Source of the DNA: Aminiphilus circumscriptus DSM 16581
GTDB lineage: Bacteria > Synergistota > Synergistia > Synergistales > Aminiphilaceae
DNA length: 64,000 nt
Reading direction: 5' to 3'
Assembly: GCF_000526375.1 (NCBI RefSeq)
Contig: NZ_JAFY01000007.1
Coordinates: 558,001 to 622,000, forward strand
Shown here: positions 21,621 through 37,219 of the stretch, piece by piece
Position numbering within the stretch: the stretch's first letter is position 1
Layout: the number at the start of each line of letters is the position of its first letter
The notes under the pieces: model-generated
Seen by the model: the letters and a program-made list of their open reading frames with translations, nothing else
The model's database searches: none
What the model was told of the DNA's origin: nothing
Position numbers and translations under genes: made by a program

Positions 21621-21697
21621 GGGCCCATAGCTCAAGTGGTTAGAGCCACCGGCTCATAACCGGAAGGTTCCTGGTTCAAGTCCAGGTGGGCCCACCA
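21621..21697 (+). tRNA. tRNA with CAT anticodon (Met or Ile2)
   Basis: The full cloverleaf has acceptor GGGCCCA/TGGGCCC, a D-stem GCTC/GAGC, an anticodon stem CCGG/CCGG with loop CTCATAA (anticodon CAT), a T-arm CCTGG-TTCAAGT-CCAGG and an encoded CCA end. It lacks initiator features, since the first pair is G-C. The D-arm and the CGGCTCATAACCG context look more like tRNA-Ile2 (lysidine-modified, reading AUA) than elongator tRNA-Met. Sequence alone does not settle it. Base 27-43 appears to be an A-A mismatch. Confidence 0.9.
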
Positions 21698-31166: not shown

Positions 31167-32390
31167 GTGACGGCGTGGAAAGAGAAGCGGCGGATTCTTC
31201 TCGGGGTGAGCGGGGGCATTTCCGCCTACAAAGTCCCGGATTTCGTTCGTGCCCTGCGGCACGGAGGCAACGAGGTGGACTGTATCCTCACGGAAGCGGC
31301 GGAGCGTTTTGTGAGCCCCATGGTGCTCGCCACTCTGTCGGAACGGCGGGTATGGCTCGAGCGCGATTTTTTGAGTGACGACGGGGGGCCGCAAATTCCC
31401 CATATCCGCCTTGCCGAACGGGCTGAGGCCTGCGGCGTCGTCCCCTGCACGGCGGATACACTGCGCAAGATAGCCCAGGGAGAGGCGGGAACGCTCCTCG
31501 GAGCGACGCTTCTCGCGCTGCGCGCCCCGGTGGTCCTTTTTCCGGCTATGAACGTGCACATGTGGGATCATCCGGCCACACAGGCCTCCGTTACCCGCTG
31601 TCGCGAATTGGGATACCGGGTGATCGAGCCGGAGGAGGGGTATTTGGCCTGCGGTTACGAGGGACGTGGACGACTTCCCTCCAAGGAGGTCATCCTGGAG
31701 GAGCTGTGGCGTGCGCTCTCTCCCAAGTGCGACCTGGAGGGCGTGCGTGTTCTCGTGACGGCGGGACCAACCCTCGAATTTCTGGATCCCGTCCGTTTCC
31801 TCAGCAACCCGAGTTCCGGAAAGATGGGGTATGCCATGGCGCGCACAGCCTGGTATCGTGGCGCGGAAGTCTGTTTGGTGACGGGGCCCGTTCCGCTCGA
31901 TCCTCCGCCGGGAGTGGAATGCGTTCGCGTCACCTCCGCCCTGGAAATGCACGATGCGGTCTTGCGAAAGCTCGAGTGGGCGACGGTGATCGTGAAGGCC
32001 GCGGCGGTGGGAGACTACCGGGCGGCACAGCAGGAGACGCGGAAGATCAAGCGCGAATCGCGGGAGCGCCTCTGCCTGGACCTAGAACAGAACCCGGACA
32101 TCGCCGCCGCCGTGGGGAGCCGCAAGCGGGCGGACCAGTTTCTGCTGGGGTTCGCCGCGGAGACGGACGACCTCATCGCCCATGCGCAGTCCAAGATGCG
32201 CAGAAAAGGGTTGGACATGATCGTCGCCAACCCCGTTTCGGGACAGCGTAACGCCTTCGGCGCGGAGGACAACAGCGTGGTTGTCATCGACAAAAGCGGC
32301 GTTGTCGCCGAATTCTCCGGAAACAAGGAATCCGTGGCGGATTCCCTGTGGGACGAGGTCGGAAAACGACTTCGCGGAAAAGGGGCATGA
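31167..32390 (+). CDS. coaBC: Bifunctional phosphopantothenoylcysteine decarboxylase / phosphopantothenate-cysteine ligase
   Basis: The 407-residue fusion carries out two steps of coenzyme A synthesis. The flavin-dependent CoaC half has GVSGGISAYKVPDFVRAL, the active-site histidine in IPHIRLAER and the PAMN motif (FPAMNVHMW). The CoaB half begins at VLVTAGPTLEFLDPVRFLSN and has SSGKMGYAMA. GTG 31167 follows GGGGGCGAGG. The product supplies CoA for the fab pathway; coaD lies 6.5 kb downstream. Its stop overlaps the start of the priA-like gene (ATGA). Confidence 0.95.
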   Translation: MTAWKEKRRILLGVSGGISAYKVPDFVRALRHGGNEVDCILTEAAERFVSPMVLATLSERRVWLERDFLSDDGGPQIPHIRLAERAEACGVVPCTADTLRKIAQGEAGTLLGATLLALRAPVVLFPAMNVHMWDHPATQASVTRCRELGYRVIEPEEGYLACGYEGRGRLPSKEVILEELWRALSPKCDLEGVRVLVTAGPTLEFLDPVRFLSNPSSGKMGYAMARTAWYRGAEVCLVTGPVPLDPPPGVECVRVTSALEMHDAVLRKLEWATVIVKAAAVGDYRAAQQETRKIKRESRERLCLDLEQNPDIAAAVGSRKRADQFLLGFAAETDDLIAHAQSKMRRKGLDMIVANPVSGQRNAFGAEDNSVVVIDKSGVVAEFSGNKESVADSLWDEVGKRLRGKGA

Positions 32391-34207
32391 CCGCCACCCT
32401 TTCCGTCCACGTACCCGGCCCCTGGTGGCATGCGCTTTCCTATCTGCATGAAACGCCCCTCCGGGAGGGGCTGCGCGTTCTTGTCCCCGTAGGACGAGGG
32501 AAACGGATCGGCTTCGTCGGAAAAGAGACGTCCGTCTTCGGAGACGGCCCTCTTCCCGGAAAAGTGCGCCTCCGGTCCGTCGAAGCCGTTCTCGATGATG
32601 TTCCGTCCCTGGGGTGGGAGCTCTGGCACCTCACCGCATGGATGGGAACGGCCTTTTTTTGCGGTATGCCTCTTGCCCTGTCCGTGGTCTCTCCGGCGTT
32701 TCTCATGAAACGAGAGATCTTCTCTTTTCCGGAAATGCCTCTGCCGGAGAATACTCGGACGGGTGGAGAGGAATTCGTCTACCGGGAGAAAAAACGTTTC
32801 CGGTTCGAACGCTACATAGAGATTCTGGGCAGAAATCCCGCAGGACCCTCGGGGCTCGCTCTTTTTTCCGAGGAAGGAGAGGCACGAGATTTCTGGACGG
32901 CTCTTCCCGAATCGATGCGCGAAAAGGGCGTCCTGTGGCCTTCGTTGGGTGGAAAGCGCCTCGCGGAAACATGGCGGAAGGTCCGGAGCGGCGAGACGAC
33001 GTTTGTCGTGGGAGCGCGGGGGGCTGTGTTCGCACCCCTTTTCCGGCCGGAGGTCATTCTCGTTGATGAGGAGGCGAGCGGCGGCCACATTGGCCCCGGC
33101 ACTCCCGCCTTTCATGTCAGGACCGTCGCCTTTCGGCGTGCTCAGCTCTGGAAATCCCTTTTCCTTCTGGGGGGAAGGATGCCTTCGTCCAGAGTGTTTC
33201 TTCGCGGAAGGCTCTCTTGTTCCTCCAAACCCGGAAAACGGCTCATTTTCGTGGATGTGGGACGTGCAAAGCGCCATGACGTGACAGGGGTGGAAGGAGG
33301 ACTCCGTCTCAGCGGAACTCTCGTGCGCAGAACCTTCGAAGCCGTCTCCGCGGGCAAGGTGGTTCTCTGGCTCCTCGACCGGAAGGGATATGCCGGAGAA
33401 GTCGTCTGCGACCAATGCGGCCGCTCCTTTCACTGTCCCCGATGCGGTACTGTGTGCAGAGTGGAGGGCGAGAGCCTCCATTGTTCCCTGTGTGGAGAGA
33501 AGCAACTCTTTCCTCGGGAATGTCCGGCATGCCGCAACCTTCTCCTGGTGGGGAAACGTCCCGGCCTGGAGGCGTTGTTGCCCATTGCGGAACGACTGTG
33601 GAAGGGAGCTTTTCCTGTCCGGCTCTGGCACAGCGGGCTTTCGGGAGAGAAGCGCCACTTGCGCGCTCTTCTGGAGGAAATGCGCCGCGGGGGACTCGTG
33701 GTGGGCACTCGCTATGCGCTGCAGCTTTGCGATGCACTCCCAGTCGGGTGCGTTTCCTGGATAGACGCGGACGGAGAGGCGCGTCGTCCCTTTTATGATG
33801 CGCGCTTCCAGGCCTTCAAGATGGTTTGGGAGTCCTGCTGGAGAGGAGAAGGAGCGGAGCACCGTCTCGTTGTCGTCCAGAGCAGGAACGTTTCCCTTCC
33901 ATGGCTGGGGGCTCTGAAGGTCGGCTGGGATGTCTTCTGGAGACGGGAGCTTCAGGAACGAAAGGATTTAAACCTTCCCCCGTGGACAACCTTGCTCTGT
34001 CTCGAGCTGCCCGAGACGATGGAGAAGGAGCGCCTGGTGGATCGATTGGAGGCCGAAGGGTTTGCCCCTCTCGACCCGGATCCATCGGGGCGGATGGTGT
34101 GGCTTCGCGTGCAGGAAGGACATCGCCTCTTTCGCGCCCTCTTTCCGCTCTTCCACCTTCAGTCGCGTCAAGGCGACTTTCCGAGAATCACCCTGTGGCG
34201 TGAATGA
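32387..34207 (+). CDS. priA: PriA-like primosomal protein without helicase motifs
   Basis: The 606-residue protein keeps the PriA layout: a 3'-DNA-binding N-terminus, a degraded helicase core, an eight-cysteine zinc region (VCDQCGRSFHCPRCGTVC to PRECPACRN, from about residue 338) and a C-terminal domain (ERKDLNLPPWTTLLCLELPE). Walker A (GVTGSGKTEVY in active enzymes) is absent; the aligned stretch reads ILGRNPAGPSGLALF. Motif II survives as VDEEASGGH, GSATPS is GGRMPS, and the late QVAGRAGR motif is gone. Replication-restart loading may remain while ATPase is lost, as proposed for actinobacterial PriA. It overlaps coaBC by four bases. Confidence 0.85.
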   Translation: MTATLSVHVPGPWWHALSYLHETPLREGLRVLVPVGRGKRIGFVGKETSVFGDGPLPGKVRLRSVEAVLDDVPSLGWELWHLTAWMGTAFFCGMPLALSVVSPAFLMKREIFSFPEMPLPENTRTGGEEFVYREKKRFRFERYIEILGRNPAGPSGLALFSEEGEARDFWTALPESMREKGVLWPSLGGKRLAETWRKVRSGETTFVVGARGAVFAPLFRPEVILVDEEASGGHIGPGTPAFHVRTVAFRRAQLWKSLFLLGGRMPSSRVFLRGRLSCSSKPGKRLIFVDVGRAKRHDVTGVEGGLRLSGTLVRRTFEAVSAGKVVLWLLDRKGYAGEVVCDQCGRSFHCPRCGTVCRVEGESLHCSLCGEKQLFPRECPACRNLLLVGKRPGLEALLPIAERLWKGAFPVRLWHSGLSGEKRHLRALLEEMRRGGLVVGTRYALQLCDALPVGCVSWIDADGEARRPFYDARFQAFKMVWESCWRGEGAEHRLVVVQSRNVSLPWLGALKVGWDVFWRRELQERKDLNLPPWTTLLCLELPETMEKERLVDRLEAEGFAPLDPDPSGRMVWLRVQEGHRLFRALFPLFHLQSRQGDFPRITLWRE

Positions 34208-34265: not shown

Positions 34266-35588
34266 ATGGCTGTCGTAACTGTCGTAGGGCGCCCGAACGT
34301 AGGGAAATCATCGCTTTTCAACAGGATCGTCGGAAGGCGTGCCGCCATTGTCGACGATCTTCCCGGCGTGACCCGGGACAGACTCTATGGAGAGACCGAG
34401 TGGAACGGACGCCGGTTCTACGTGGTCGATACGGGCGGCATCGTCTTCGAGGAGGATCTCCCCTTTGCTCCGGGCGTGTTTGCCCAGGTCCGTTCGGCCA
34501 TTGAGGAGAGCGATGTCATTCTTTTTGTCATCGATGGCAGGAACGGGCCGAATTCCGTGGACGGGGAGATCGCCTCGCTCCTCCGGAAGAGCCGGGTTCC
34601 GATTCTCGTGGTGTGCAACAAAATCGACGACCCCGTTCACGAGAAGGAAATGTACGAAGCCTACGGACTCGGCTTCGAACAAGTTTTCCCCGTCAGCGCC
34701 ATGCACGGGCGGAATGTCGAGGACCTTCTCGATGCGGTGGTCTCGCTTCTGCCCGAACCGGGAAGCGAGGAGGAGGTCGAGGAACCGGAGATCTCCGTTG
34801 CGCTCATAGGGCGTCCGAACGTCGGAAAATCGAGTATCCTCAATGCTTTGCTCGGAGAGGAGCGTTCCCTCGTGAGTCCCATTCCGGGAACGACGAGGGA
34901 TGCCATTGATTCTCTCGTGGATATCGGTGGTGTCCTCTATCGCTTCATAGACACCGCAGGCTTGCGGCGAAAGAGTCGCGTCGATTCCGACGTGGAATAT
35001 TACTCGAACCTCCGCAGTTTCGAGGCCATCGACCGGTGCCACGTGGCGGTGCTGGTCATGGAAGGAGGAGAGACGGCGACGGATCAGGACAAACGGCTTG
35101 CCGGCCGGGTGCTGGACCGAGGCAAAGGGCTCGTTCTCGTGGTGAACAAATGGGATCTGGCGCCGAAACGGGAAGCTCTGGGAGACGAAATGCGCAAATT
35201 TCTGAAAAACGAATTTACCTTTGCGGCGCATGCACCCACGGTGTTTGTCTCCGCGAAGACCGGAAGGAACCTCCACAAGATTCCGGAGCACGTAGCGGTC
35301 GTGCACGCAAACCGGCGTCGCCGCATTTCCACATCCGAGCTGAACCGACTTCTTCGGGACCTGATGGCGTTCGAACGCCTTCCCAGCGACGGGTCTGGGC
35401 GATTTCTCAAGATCTATTACTGTGCCCAGGTACGGACAGCACCGCCTACCTTCGCCTTTTTCGTCAACGATCCGAATATCGTCACCCAGCAATTTCACCG
35501 GCACGTGGAGAAACAGTTGCGCCAGCTTGCCTGCTTCGATGGCGTTCCTCTTCGAATTCACTGGCGAAAAAGCGAGAGAAAGGAATAA
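34266..35588 (+). CDS. der: Ribosome assembly GTPase Der (EngA)
   Basis: The 440-residue protein has two tandem GTPase domains and a KH-like C-terminus. G1 motifs are VGRPNVGKSSLFNRI and IGRPNVGKSSILNAL; G3 motifs are DTGGI and DTAGL; G4 motifs are CNKIDD and VNKWDL. It is required for 50S subunit maturation. The ATG at 34266 follows GAGGTAGG. It ends the long co-directional block that begins near the HDOD gene. Confidence 0.97.
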   Translation: MAVVTVVGRPNVGKSSLFNRIVGRRAAIVDDLPGVTRDRLYGETEWNGRRFYVVDTGGIVFEEDLPFAPGVFAQVRSAIEESDVILFVIDGRNGPNSVDGEIASLLRKSRVPILVVCNKIDDPVHEKEMYEAYGLGFEQVFPVSAMHGRNVEDLLDAVVSLLPEPGSEEEVEEPEISVALIGRPNVGKSSILNALLGEERSLVSPIPGTTRDAIDSLVDIGGVLYRFIDTAGLRRKSRVDSDVEYYSNLRSFEAIDRCHVAVLVMEGGETATDQDKRLAGRVLDRGKGLVLVVNKWDLAPKREALGDEMRKFLKNEFTFAAHAPTVFVSAKTGRNLHKIPEHVAVVHANRRRRISTSELNRLLRDLMAFERLPSDGSGRFLKIYYCAQVRTAPPTFAFFVNDPNIVTQQFHRHVEKQLRQLACFDGVPLRIHWRKSERKE

Positions 35589-37141: not shown

Positions 37142-37219
37142 TGGTCGGGATGAGAGGATTTGAACCTCCGACACCCTGCACCCCATGCAGGTGCGCTAGC
37201 CAGGCTGCGCTACATCCCG
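37142..37219 (-). tRNA. tRNA-Pro (GGG)
   Basis: The minus strand gives the cloverleaf with acceptor CGGGATG/CATCCCG, an anticodon stem CCTGC/GCAGG with loop ATGGGGT (anticodon GGG, G37 as usual for proline), T-loop TTCAAAT and a CCA end. It decodes CCC and probably CCU. A strong promoter lies 12-40 bases upstream and a terminator just downstream. Confidence 0.93.

Follow-up and report, generated by a model that had tools for sequence, protein, structure and literature searches.

How replication restart can proceed when the only PriA of a bacterium has lost the sequence motifs of an ATPase is the question raised by a priA gene of Aminiphilus circumscriptus DSM 16581. The gene (positions 32387 to 34207, forward strand; 606 amino acids plus stop) lies in a stretch of 64,000 nucleotides, positions 558,001 to 622,000 of contig NZ_JAFY01000007.1 (assembly GCF_000526375.1), referred to here as the window. 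The initial annotation had called its product a pseudohelicase, in which the PriA framework and the zinc region are recognisable and Walker A, the GSATPS motif, and the C-terminal arginine motif are gone. Comparison with eight intact PriA proteins confirmed these losses on a PriA framework, and the sequence supports the label. Three features go beyond that annotation: the loss of the winged-helix domain, the phylum-wide extent of the change in Synergistota, and an invariant arginine in the column of the Walker A lysine. We consider it likely that this ancestral, phylum-wide PriA pseudohelicase is a functional, ATP-independent platform for fork recognition and DnaB recruitment.

The phylum was surveyed by profile search of 185 genomes, and PriA was read residue by residue in 91 of them, with all 12 families represented (L037 was dropped from this set as a duplicate of L002). 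The eight intact references belong to Pseudomonadota, Bacillota, Cyanobacteriota, and Bacteroidota; one actinobacterial PriA was added, and motif columns are numbered after Escherichia coli PriA (K230, D320, and so on). The window gene is an orthologous priA, on its sequence and on its coaBC synteny. Its 3' DNA-end-binding domain (3'BD; residues 7 to 103, positions 32405 to 32695) matched PF17764 of Pfam at 7.5e-10 (39 bits against a cut-off of 22.7), and the same domain was matched in 90 of the 91 Synergistota proteins, the sole miss being a truncated row. The cysteine-rich zinc region inside lobe 2 (C341 to C382, positions 33407 to 33532) contains four CxxC pairs, and all eight cysteines are present in each of the 91 rows. 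NCBIfam PriA models matched the window protein with a best value of 1.5e-40, all far under their cut-offs; solved PriA chains matched it at best with 2.7e-34, and the hhalign profile-profile alignment to PriA had a probability of 100 and an E value of 2.5e-72. Among named records, the nearest is from the Synergistaceae metagenome-assembled genome UBA5560, with 96% identity along the entire protein.

The ATPase motifs of the window protein, all read on the forward strand, are replaced to different degrees. Where GVTGSGKTEVY is canonical for Walker A, it carries REKKRFRFERY (residues 133 to 143, positions 32783 to 32815), in which R139 (32801 to 32803) aligns with E. coli K230. This column holds arginine in 90 of the 91 rows under three alignment settings, the remaining row being the truncated L023, and hhalign paired the window residue in the same way. 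G227 and T231 were kept in no row, G224 and G229 in one row each, and none of the 91 proteins has a P-loop where Walker A would lie. Walker B, or motif II, is half-kept as DEEA (residues 227 to 230, positions 33065 to 33076) in place of DEEH; the D320 column holds D in 57 rows and E in 34, the E322 column (window E229) is E in 90, and both E229 and R245 of the window protein are near-invariant. At the site of motif III, GGRMPS (residues 262 to 267, positions 33170 to 33187) stands for GSATPS, with S356 kept in three rows (the column is G in 86) and T358 in one. The former motif V, canonically GTQMLAKG, reads GTRYALQLCD (residues 440 to 449, positions 33704 to 33733), and K544 was kept in one row and G545 in none. 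Motif VI, canonically QVAGRAGR, has given way to WESCWRG (residues 481 to 487, positions 33827 to 33847), a new block that ten of the twelve families have conserved; R587 was kept in no row and Q580 in one. SATP and QxxGRxGR, present in all eight intact references, were found in 0 of the 91 Synergistota rows.

This pattern differs from uniform divergence. Of the 83 columns in which all eight intact PriAs agree, the Synergistota proteins keep 708 of 2,542 cells in the ATPase motifs (28%), 2,082 of 4,044 cells outside the motifs (51%), and every cysteine cell (728 of 728, 100%). Since the ATPase columns are kept less than the others, the loss is concentrated in the ATPase chemistry, beyond drift. 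Isolated motif-like strings were also read: DExH strings occur in five of the 91 rows (in L031 and L043 as EEGH, shifted by one residue from the motif II column, and elsewhere in the rest), and GxxxxGKS occurs in one row, outside the Walker A column.

The alignment across the phylum, which the initial annotation had proposed, showed the loss in all 91 proteins, and the wider search gave a congruent picture. The PriA profile TIGR00595 found matches in 185 of 185 genomes. In four of these (best 350.9 bits) the match exceeded the cut-off, and the corresponding proteins (L003 to L006, families f12 and f11) are likewise without Walker A, SATP, and motif VI. Five intact PriAs scored 565 to 730 bits with this profile, compared with 127 for the window protein and 128 for the actinobacterial control. 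A DNA pattern for the PriA P-loop was found in none of the 185 genomes. At the protein level it reads G[VI]TxSGKTE[VI][YF], and on visual comparison seven of the eight intact references conform to it. A looser P-loop pattern occurred in 173 of the 185 genomes; 12 of the 13 sites read were the UvrB-type GVTGSGKT[FY]T, and one belonged to another protein. No additional PriA was found on viral contigs. These sequences are best explained by a loss of the ATPase no later than in the last ancestor shared by the sampled members of the phylum. The suggestion of an independent loss in the source genome therefore needs correcting, as the loss is old and common to the whole sampled phylum. It may or may not be independent of the loss in Deinococcus-Thermus, because both groups share the lysine-to-arginine change in Walker A.

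The domain make-up points to a reduced protein built on a persistent core. DEAD, Helicase_C, winged-helix, PriA zinc, and PriA_C domains gave no Pfam match in the window protein; across the 91 rows, DEAD (PF00270) was matched weakly in one (0.008) and Helicase_C in one (L003). A short linker (residues 104 to 138, positions 32696 to 32800) takes the place of the winged-helix domain, which is usual but not universal in the PriA family. From the end of the 3'BD to the K230 column we counted 36 residues in the window protein and a median of 35 in the 91 rows; the eight intact PriAs have 121 to 210 there, and the actinobacterial PriA has 59. The winged-helix model PF21213 matched E. coli PriA and none of the 91 rows, and it was also unmatched in the actinobacterial control and in the intact Pusillibacter control; because of the latter, the linker spacing is the stronger evidence for loss of the domain. 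The C-terminal domain region (residues 531 to 606, positions 33977 to 34204) has diverged from PriA_C (PF18074), a profile matched in two of the 91 rows, including the deepest, L003, and absent in the window protein and the actinobacterial control. In contrast to these losses, the distance from motif I to motif II (K230 to D320) is 88 residues, compared with 90 in intact PriAs, and spacings within the lobes are nearly unchanged. This near-constant spacing indicates that the lobes survive as a scaffold.

The gene is under purifying selection. The ratio of nonsynonymous to synonymous substitution rates (dN/dS) was 0.14 between the window gene and its nearest relative, L002, and 0.07 to 0.23 in 14 of 18 pairs with usable dS (0.12 to 3.5); of the remaining pairs, L008/L009 gave 0.44 as a close pair with very few changes, and three distant pairs were dS-saturated. 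Open frames of about 600 amino acids persist across the phylum, 88 of 90 extracted frames being marked full in a count that includes the truncated L023. In families f1 to f10 (86 rows), new residues are fixed at or near the former motif sites: W328 (86 of 86), G263 (83), W458 (85), S483 (86), G487 (85), and R493 (85). As these residues are fixed where motifs III, IV, and VI stood, they suggest that the sites were reused and not left to decay. The deepest sequence (L003, family f12) retains DEES, NRRGYA, and DFRSGER, and family f11 is intermediate. In a tree computed without the actinobacterial PriA, f1 to f11 were grouped with a support of 1.0. When the actinobacterial PriA was included, it fell inside Synergistota with a support of 0.054, which we read as long-branch noise. 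Given the low support values in these trees, no strong claim is drawn from them.

A second intact priA, named in the initial annotation as the finding that would speak against a pseudohelicase, was looked for with TIGR00595 in the source genome (3.22 Mb, 7 contigs, 99.9% complete), and none was found; the only other matches were Mfd and UvrB. In the proposed search for DnaB, DnaD, or a substitute helicase, DnaB was present over its cut-off, a UvrD-family helicase was present with PcrA and Rep as its best matches, and DnaD/DnaB_2 had no match in this genome. PriC likewise had no match there, and no DnaC was seen among the six strongest of its eight IstB-family matches, those examined being IstB, partly as fragments, and DnaA. 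The IstB fragments at C2:833715-834008 and C2:187631-187870 are remnants of IS21 elements, for which IstB is the helper, and two full-length IstB copies with equal scores lie elsewhere in the genome. By coordinates, a gene for DciA shares its contig with DnaA at a distance of about 5 kb, and DciA was detected in 159 of the 185 phylum genomes. It went undetected in 26, including the 100% complete G122 and several of genus g16; in these genomes, DciA is either very diverged or lost.

These observations can be combined into a scheme for restart without ATP. The two RecA-like lobes would persist near full length as a scaffold, devoid of nucleotide-binding and arginine-finger motifs. In E. coli PriA, as seen by cryo-electron microscopy, the 3'BD contacts the leading-strand 3' end, and CRR, HD2, and CTD together make up a pore for lagging-strand single-stranded DNA. 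By analogy, the Synergistota 3'BD may recognise the fork, and lobes, zinc region, and C-terminal domain may hold the single-stranded lagging-strand template as in the E. coli pore. The complex would then recruit DnaB without ATP, presumably with DciA as loader, the genes for both being present in the genome. Binding of DnaB by PriA is shown for Deinococcus radiodurans only (as described in PMC4504706), and a joint action of DciA with PriA is put forward as a suggestion in PMC9825169; an E. coli preprimosome is described in PMC13377028. The ATPase of E. coli PriA is dispensable for PriA-PriB restart in vivo, and its K230A variant was used in DnaB loading assays. Restart by protein recruitment without ATP, which the initial annotation had offered as one possibility, fits the published work on E. 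coli and D. radiodurans. The kept 3'BD, lobes, and zinc region are the parts that such a role would need, and the lost motifs serve unwinding.

Several points weigh against a fork-recognition and recruitment platform that dispenses with ATP. The 94 genomes beyond the 91 were judged by profile score and DNA pattern only. Motif II still has D227, E228, and E229, which makes nucleotide binding of a weak or unusual kind conceivable, and an AlphaFold job (window protein and L002, alignment A2) reached a predicted local distance difference test score (pLDDT) of 33, so that the fold of the ATP pocket was not taken from the model. Monophyly of the Synergistota PriAs with respect to the references had a support of 0.42 in the tree computed without the actinobacterial protein. 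Because the winged helix and the similarity to PriA_C are lost, fork recognition may also differ from that in E. coli more than we assume.

Could the protein still hydrolyse ATP or unwind DNA through a nucleotide site too diverged for sequence comparison to recognise? The kept acidic residues of motif II, the motif I-II distance of 88 compared with 90 residues, and the near-invariance of E229 and R245 would be expected in that case. However, arginine replaces the P-loop lysine in 90 of the 91 rows, the P-loop glycines and motif VI are gone, and K230R alone abolishes the ATPase of E. coli PriA, as stated in PMC4504706; we regard a hidden ATPase as improbable. Only slightly less improbable is that the gene left replication restart for another job, for instance as a zinc-ribbon DNA-binding factor, a change with which the lost winged helix and PriA_C similarity and the new conserved blocks in f1 to f10 would agree. 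Against such a departure stand the 3'BD and the zinc cysteines, kept throughout, and the kept adjacency to coaBC; moreover, this is the sole PriA of a genome in which no PriC was found. Motif loss and low similarity to PriA models might also be read as signs of a decaying pseudogene or a local assembly artefact, an idea already contradicted by open frames of about 600 residues phylum-wide, low dN/dS, and the identical state in 91 genomes, and to which we give almost no credence.

The remaining alternative concerns history, namely, that the loss was inherited jointly with Deinococcus-Thermus, the lysine-to-arginine change coming first and further erosion later. A deep placement of Synergistota and Deinococcus-Thermus near each other would agree with this. 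Arginine stands for the Walker A lysine in both (for Deinococcus-Thermus, according to PMC4504706). Nevertheless, the rest of Walker A is erased in Synergistota, whereas a GKT-to-arginine change within a poor Walker A match is described for Deinococcus-Thermus (PMC4504706). A single lysine-to-arginine change is also easily repeated, and the actinobacterial control has tryptophan at this position. Joint inheritance therefore seems to us a minority possibility, although a more serious one than those considered above. An ATP-independent recruitment platform of ancestral origin remains the reading that we prefer.

PriA pseudohelicases as such are known from D. radiodurans, and what is new in Synergistota is, as judged from the sequences, a more extreme, rewired, and phylum-wide version. 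The precedent given in the initial annotation was actinobacterial, and it holds at the sequence level; the experimentally shown case is that of Deinococcus, which it had not named. PriA of D. radiodurans is described in PMC4504706 as having unmeasurable ATPase and negligible unwinding activity while binding single-stranded DNA, forks, and DnaB. Like the Synergistota proteins, it is an orthologue without ATPase motifs and has arginine in place of the Walker A lysine; neither a PriB nor a DnaT partner is reported for it, and we found DciA in the Deinococcota and Thermus control genomes too. It differs in that poor matches are reported for motifs I and II, whereas the Synergistota proteins have an erased P-loop, are without motifs III, V, and VI and the winged-helix domain, and carry newly conserved residues in their place.

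The actinobacterial PriA of Tsukamurella tyrosinosolvens (PRK14873 type) is likewise short and lacks Walker A, SATP, motif VI, and the winged helix, and it shares the eight zinc cysteines and a nearly equal TIGR00595 score. It differs in the tryptophan of the Walker A lysine column and in a motif II that reads WDD instead of DEE, and the separate NCBIfam models for actinobacterial PriA score the window protein poorly. Rocha et al. (2005) described actinobacterial PriA as smaller and very divergent in the text of PMC1193525. The T. tyrosinosolvens record NZ_LR134460.1 (priA at L122:1440-3431) is labelled as a 360-kb plasmid and carries coaBC, metK, and priA; it is probably a chromosome fragment, and several other plasmid records with priA look alike. 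E. coli PriA shares the order of 3'BD, lobe 1, lobe 2 with zinc insertion, and C-terminal domain. We found no published report pairing PriA with Synergistetes or Synergistota, which is not proof of unpublished status.

In the window, the genes, named by reading their translations, are ordered gmk-rpoZ-coaBC-priA-der-HU. The priA frame begins with ATG at 32387, and its ATGA forms a 4-base overlap with the stop of coaBC (31167 to 32390, forward strand), the gene directly upstream and a synteny marker of priA; inspection of the frame and of this overlap ruled out a wrong start or frame. coaBC lies at most 150 bp upstream of priA in 86 of 88 Synergistota loci with at least 400 bp of upstream sequence, and der, the GTPase gene downstream (34266 to 35588, forward strand), follows priA in 49 of the 85 loci whose downstream sequence extends for 400 bp or more. 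In Bacillota, too, coaBC stands before priA (Monoglobus), and in Pusillibacter gmk-rpoZ stand before it. Opposite priA, a reverse-strand open reading frame of 615 amino acids (32015 to 33862) is one of many long ones in this window of 59% G+C and is most likely a shadow of codon bias. The window also contains a tRNA-Pro(GGG) gene (37142 to 37219, reverse strand) near a ksgA-like gene, and its only other tRNA is a tRNA-Met at 21621 to 21697.

RecG is commonly regarded as widespread among bacteria. In the 99.9% complete source genome, to which this search was confined, it was not found with TIGR00643: the best match was Mfd with 362 bits against a cut-off of 659, and the other five were UvrB, one DEAD RNA helicase in two pieces, and two further DEAD proteins. 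L035 was considered as RecG and rejected, being UvrB. The co-occurrence in one genome of a fixed arginine equivalent to Lys230 and no RecG is striking, as the natural Synergistota residue equals the laboratory separation-of-function change K230R (priA300) of E. coli, which is helicase-dead yet restart-competent, and of which the Deinococcus-Thermus substitution is likewise an arginine counterpart. E. coli PriA differs in that all other motifs and the winged helix are kept and in that it works with PriB, DnaT, and DnaC, alongside RecG. Inactivation of the PriA helicase, including by K230R, is described as suppressing the defects of E. coli recG mutants, and RecG is believed to prevent D-loop unwinding by PriA and backward loading of DnaB (as presented in PMC7326373, PMC4752480, and PMC4631800).

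It is tempting to speculate, though we hold it to be rather doubtful, that the phylum lives in a state comparable to E. coli recG priA300, with arginine for Lys230 and RecG absent, and that the WRG block docks DnaB-DciA. Loss of either RecG or the PriA helicase would then make loss of the other harmless or beneficial, and the rewired lobe 2 block (W458, S483, and WRG) would be a docking face handing DnaB-DciA to the fork without ATP. The PriA half of this idea comes from 91 genomes and the absence of RecG from one. If Deinococcus and mycobacteria keep RecG, paired loss of PriA helicase and RecG is no general rule.

Although the helicase activity of PriA can be dispensed with in the laboratory, it is conserved widely, which raises the question of why it is retained. 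A phylum that has apparently lived without PriA helicase since its common ancestor, with one searched genome also lacking RecG, would offer a natural test. It would predict which fork structures restart without unwinding and whether a balance between RecG and the PriA helicase also exists in bacteria other than E. coli, and it may provide a minimal ATP-free restart platform for learning how DnaB and DciA reach forks.

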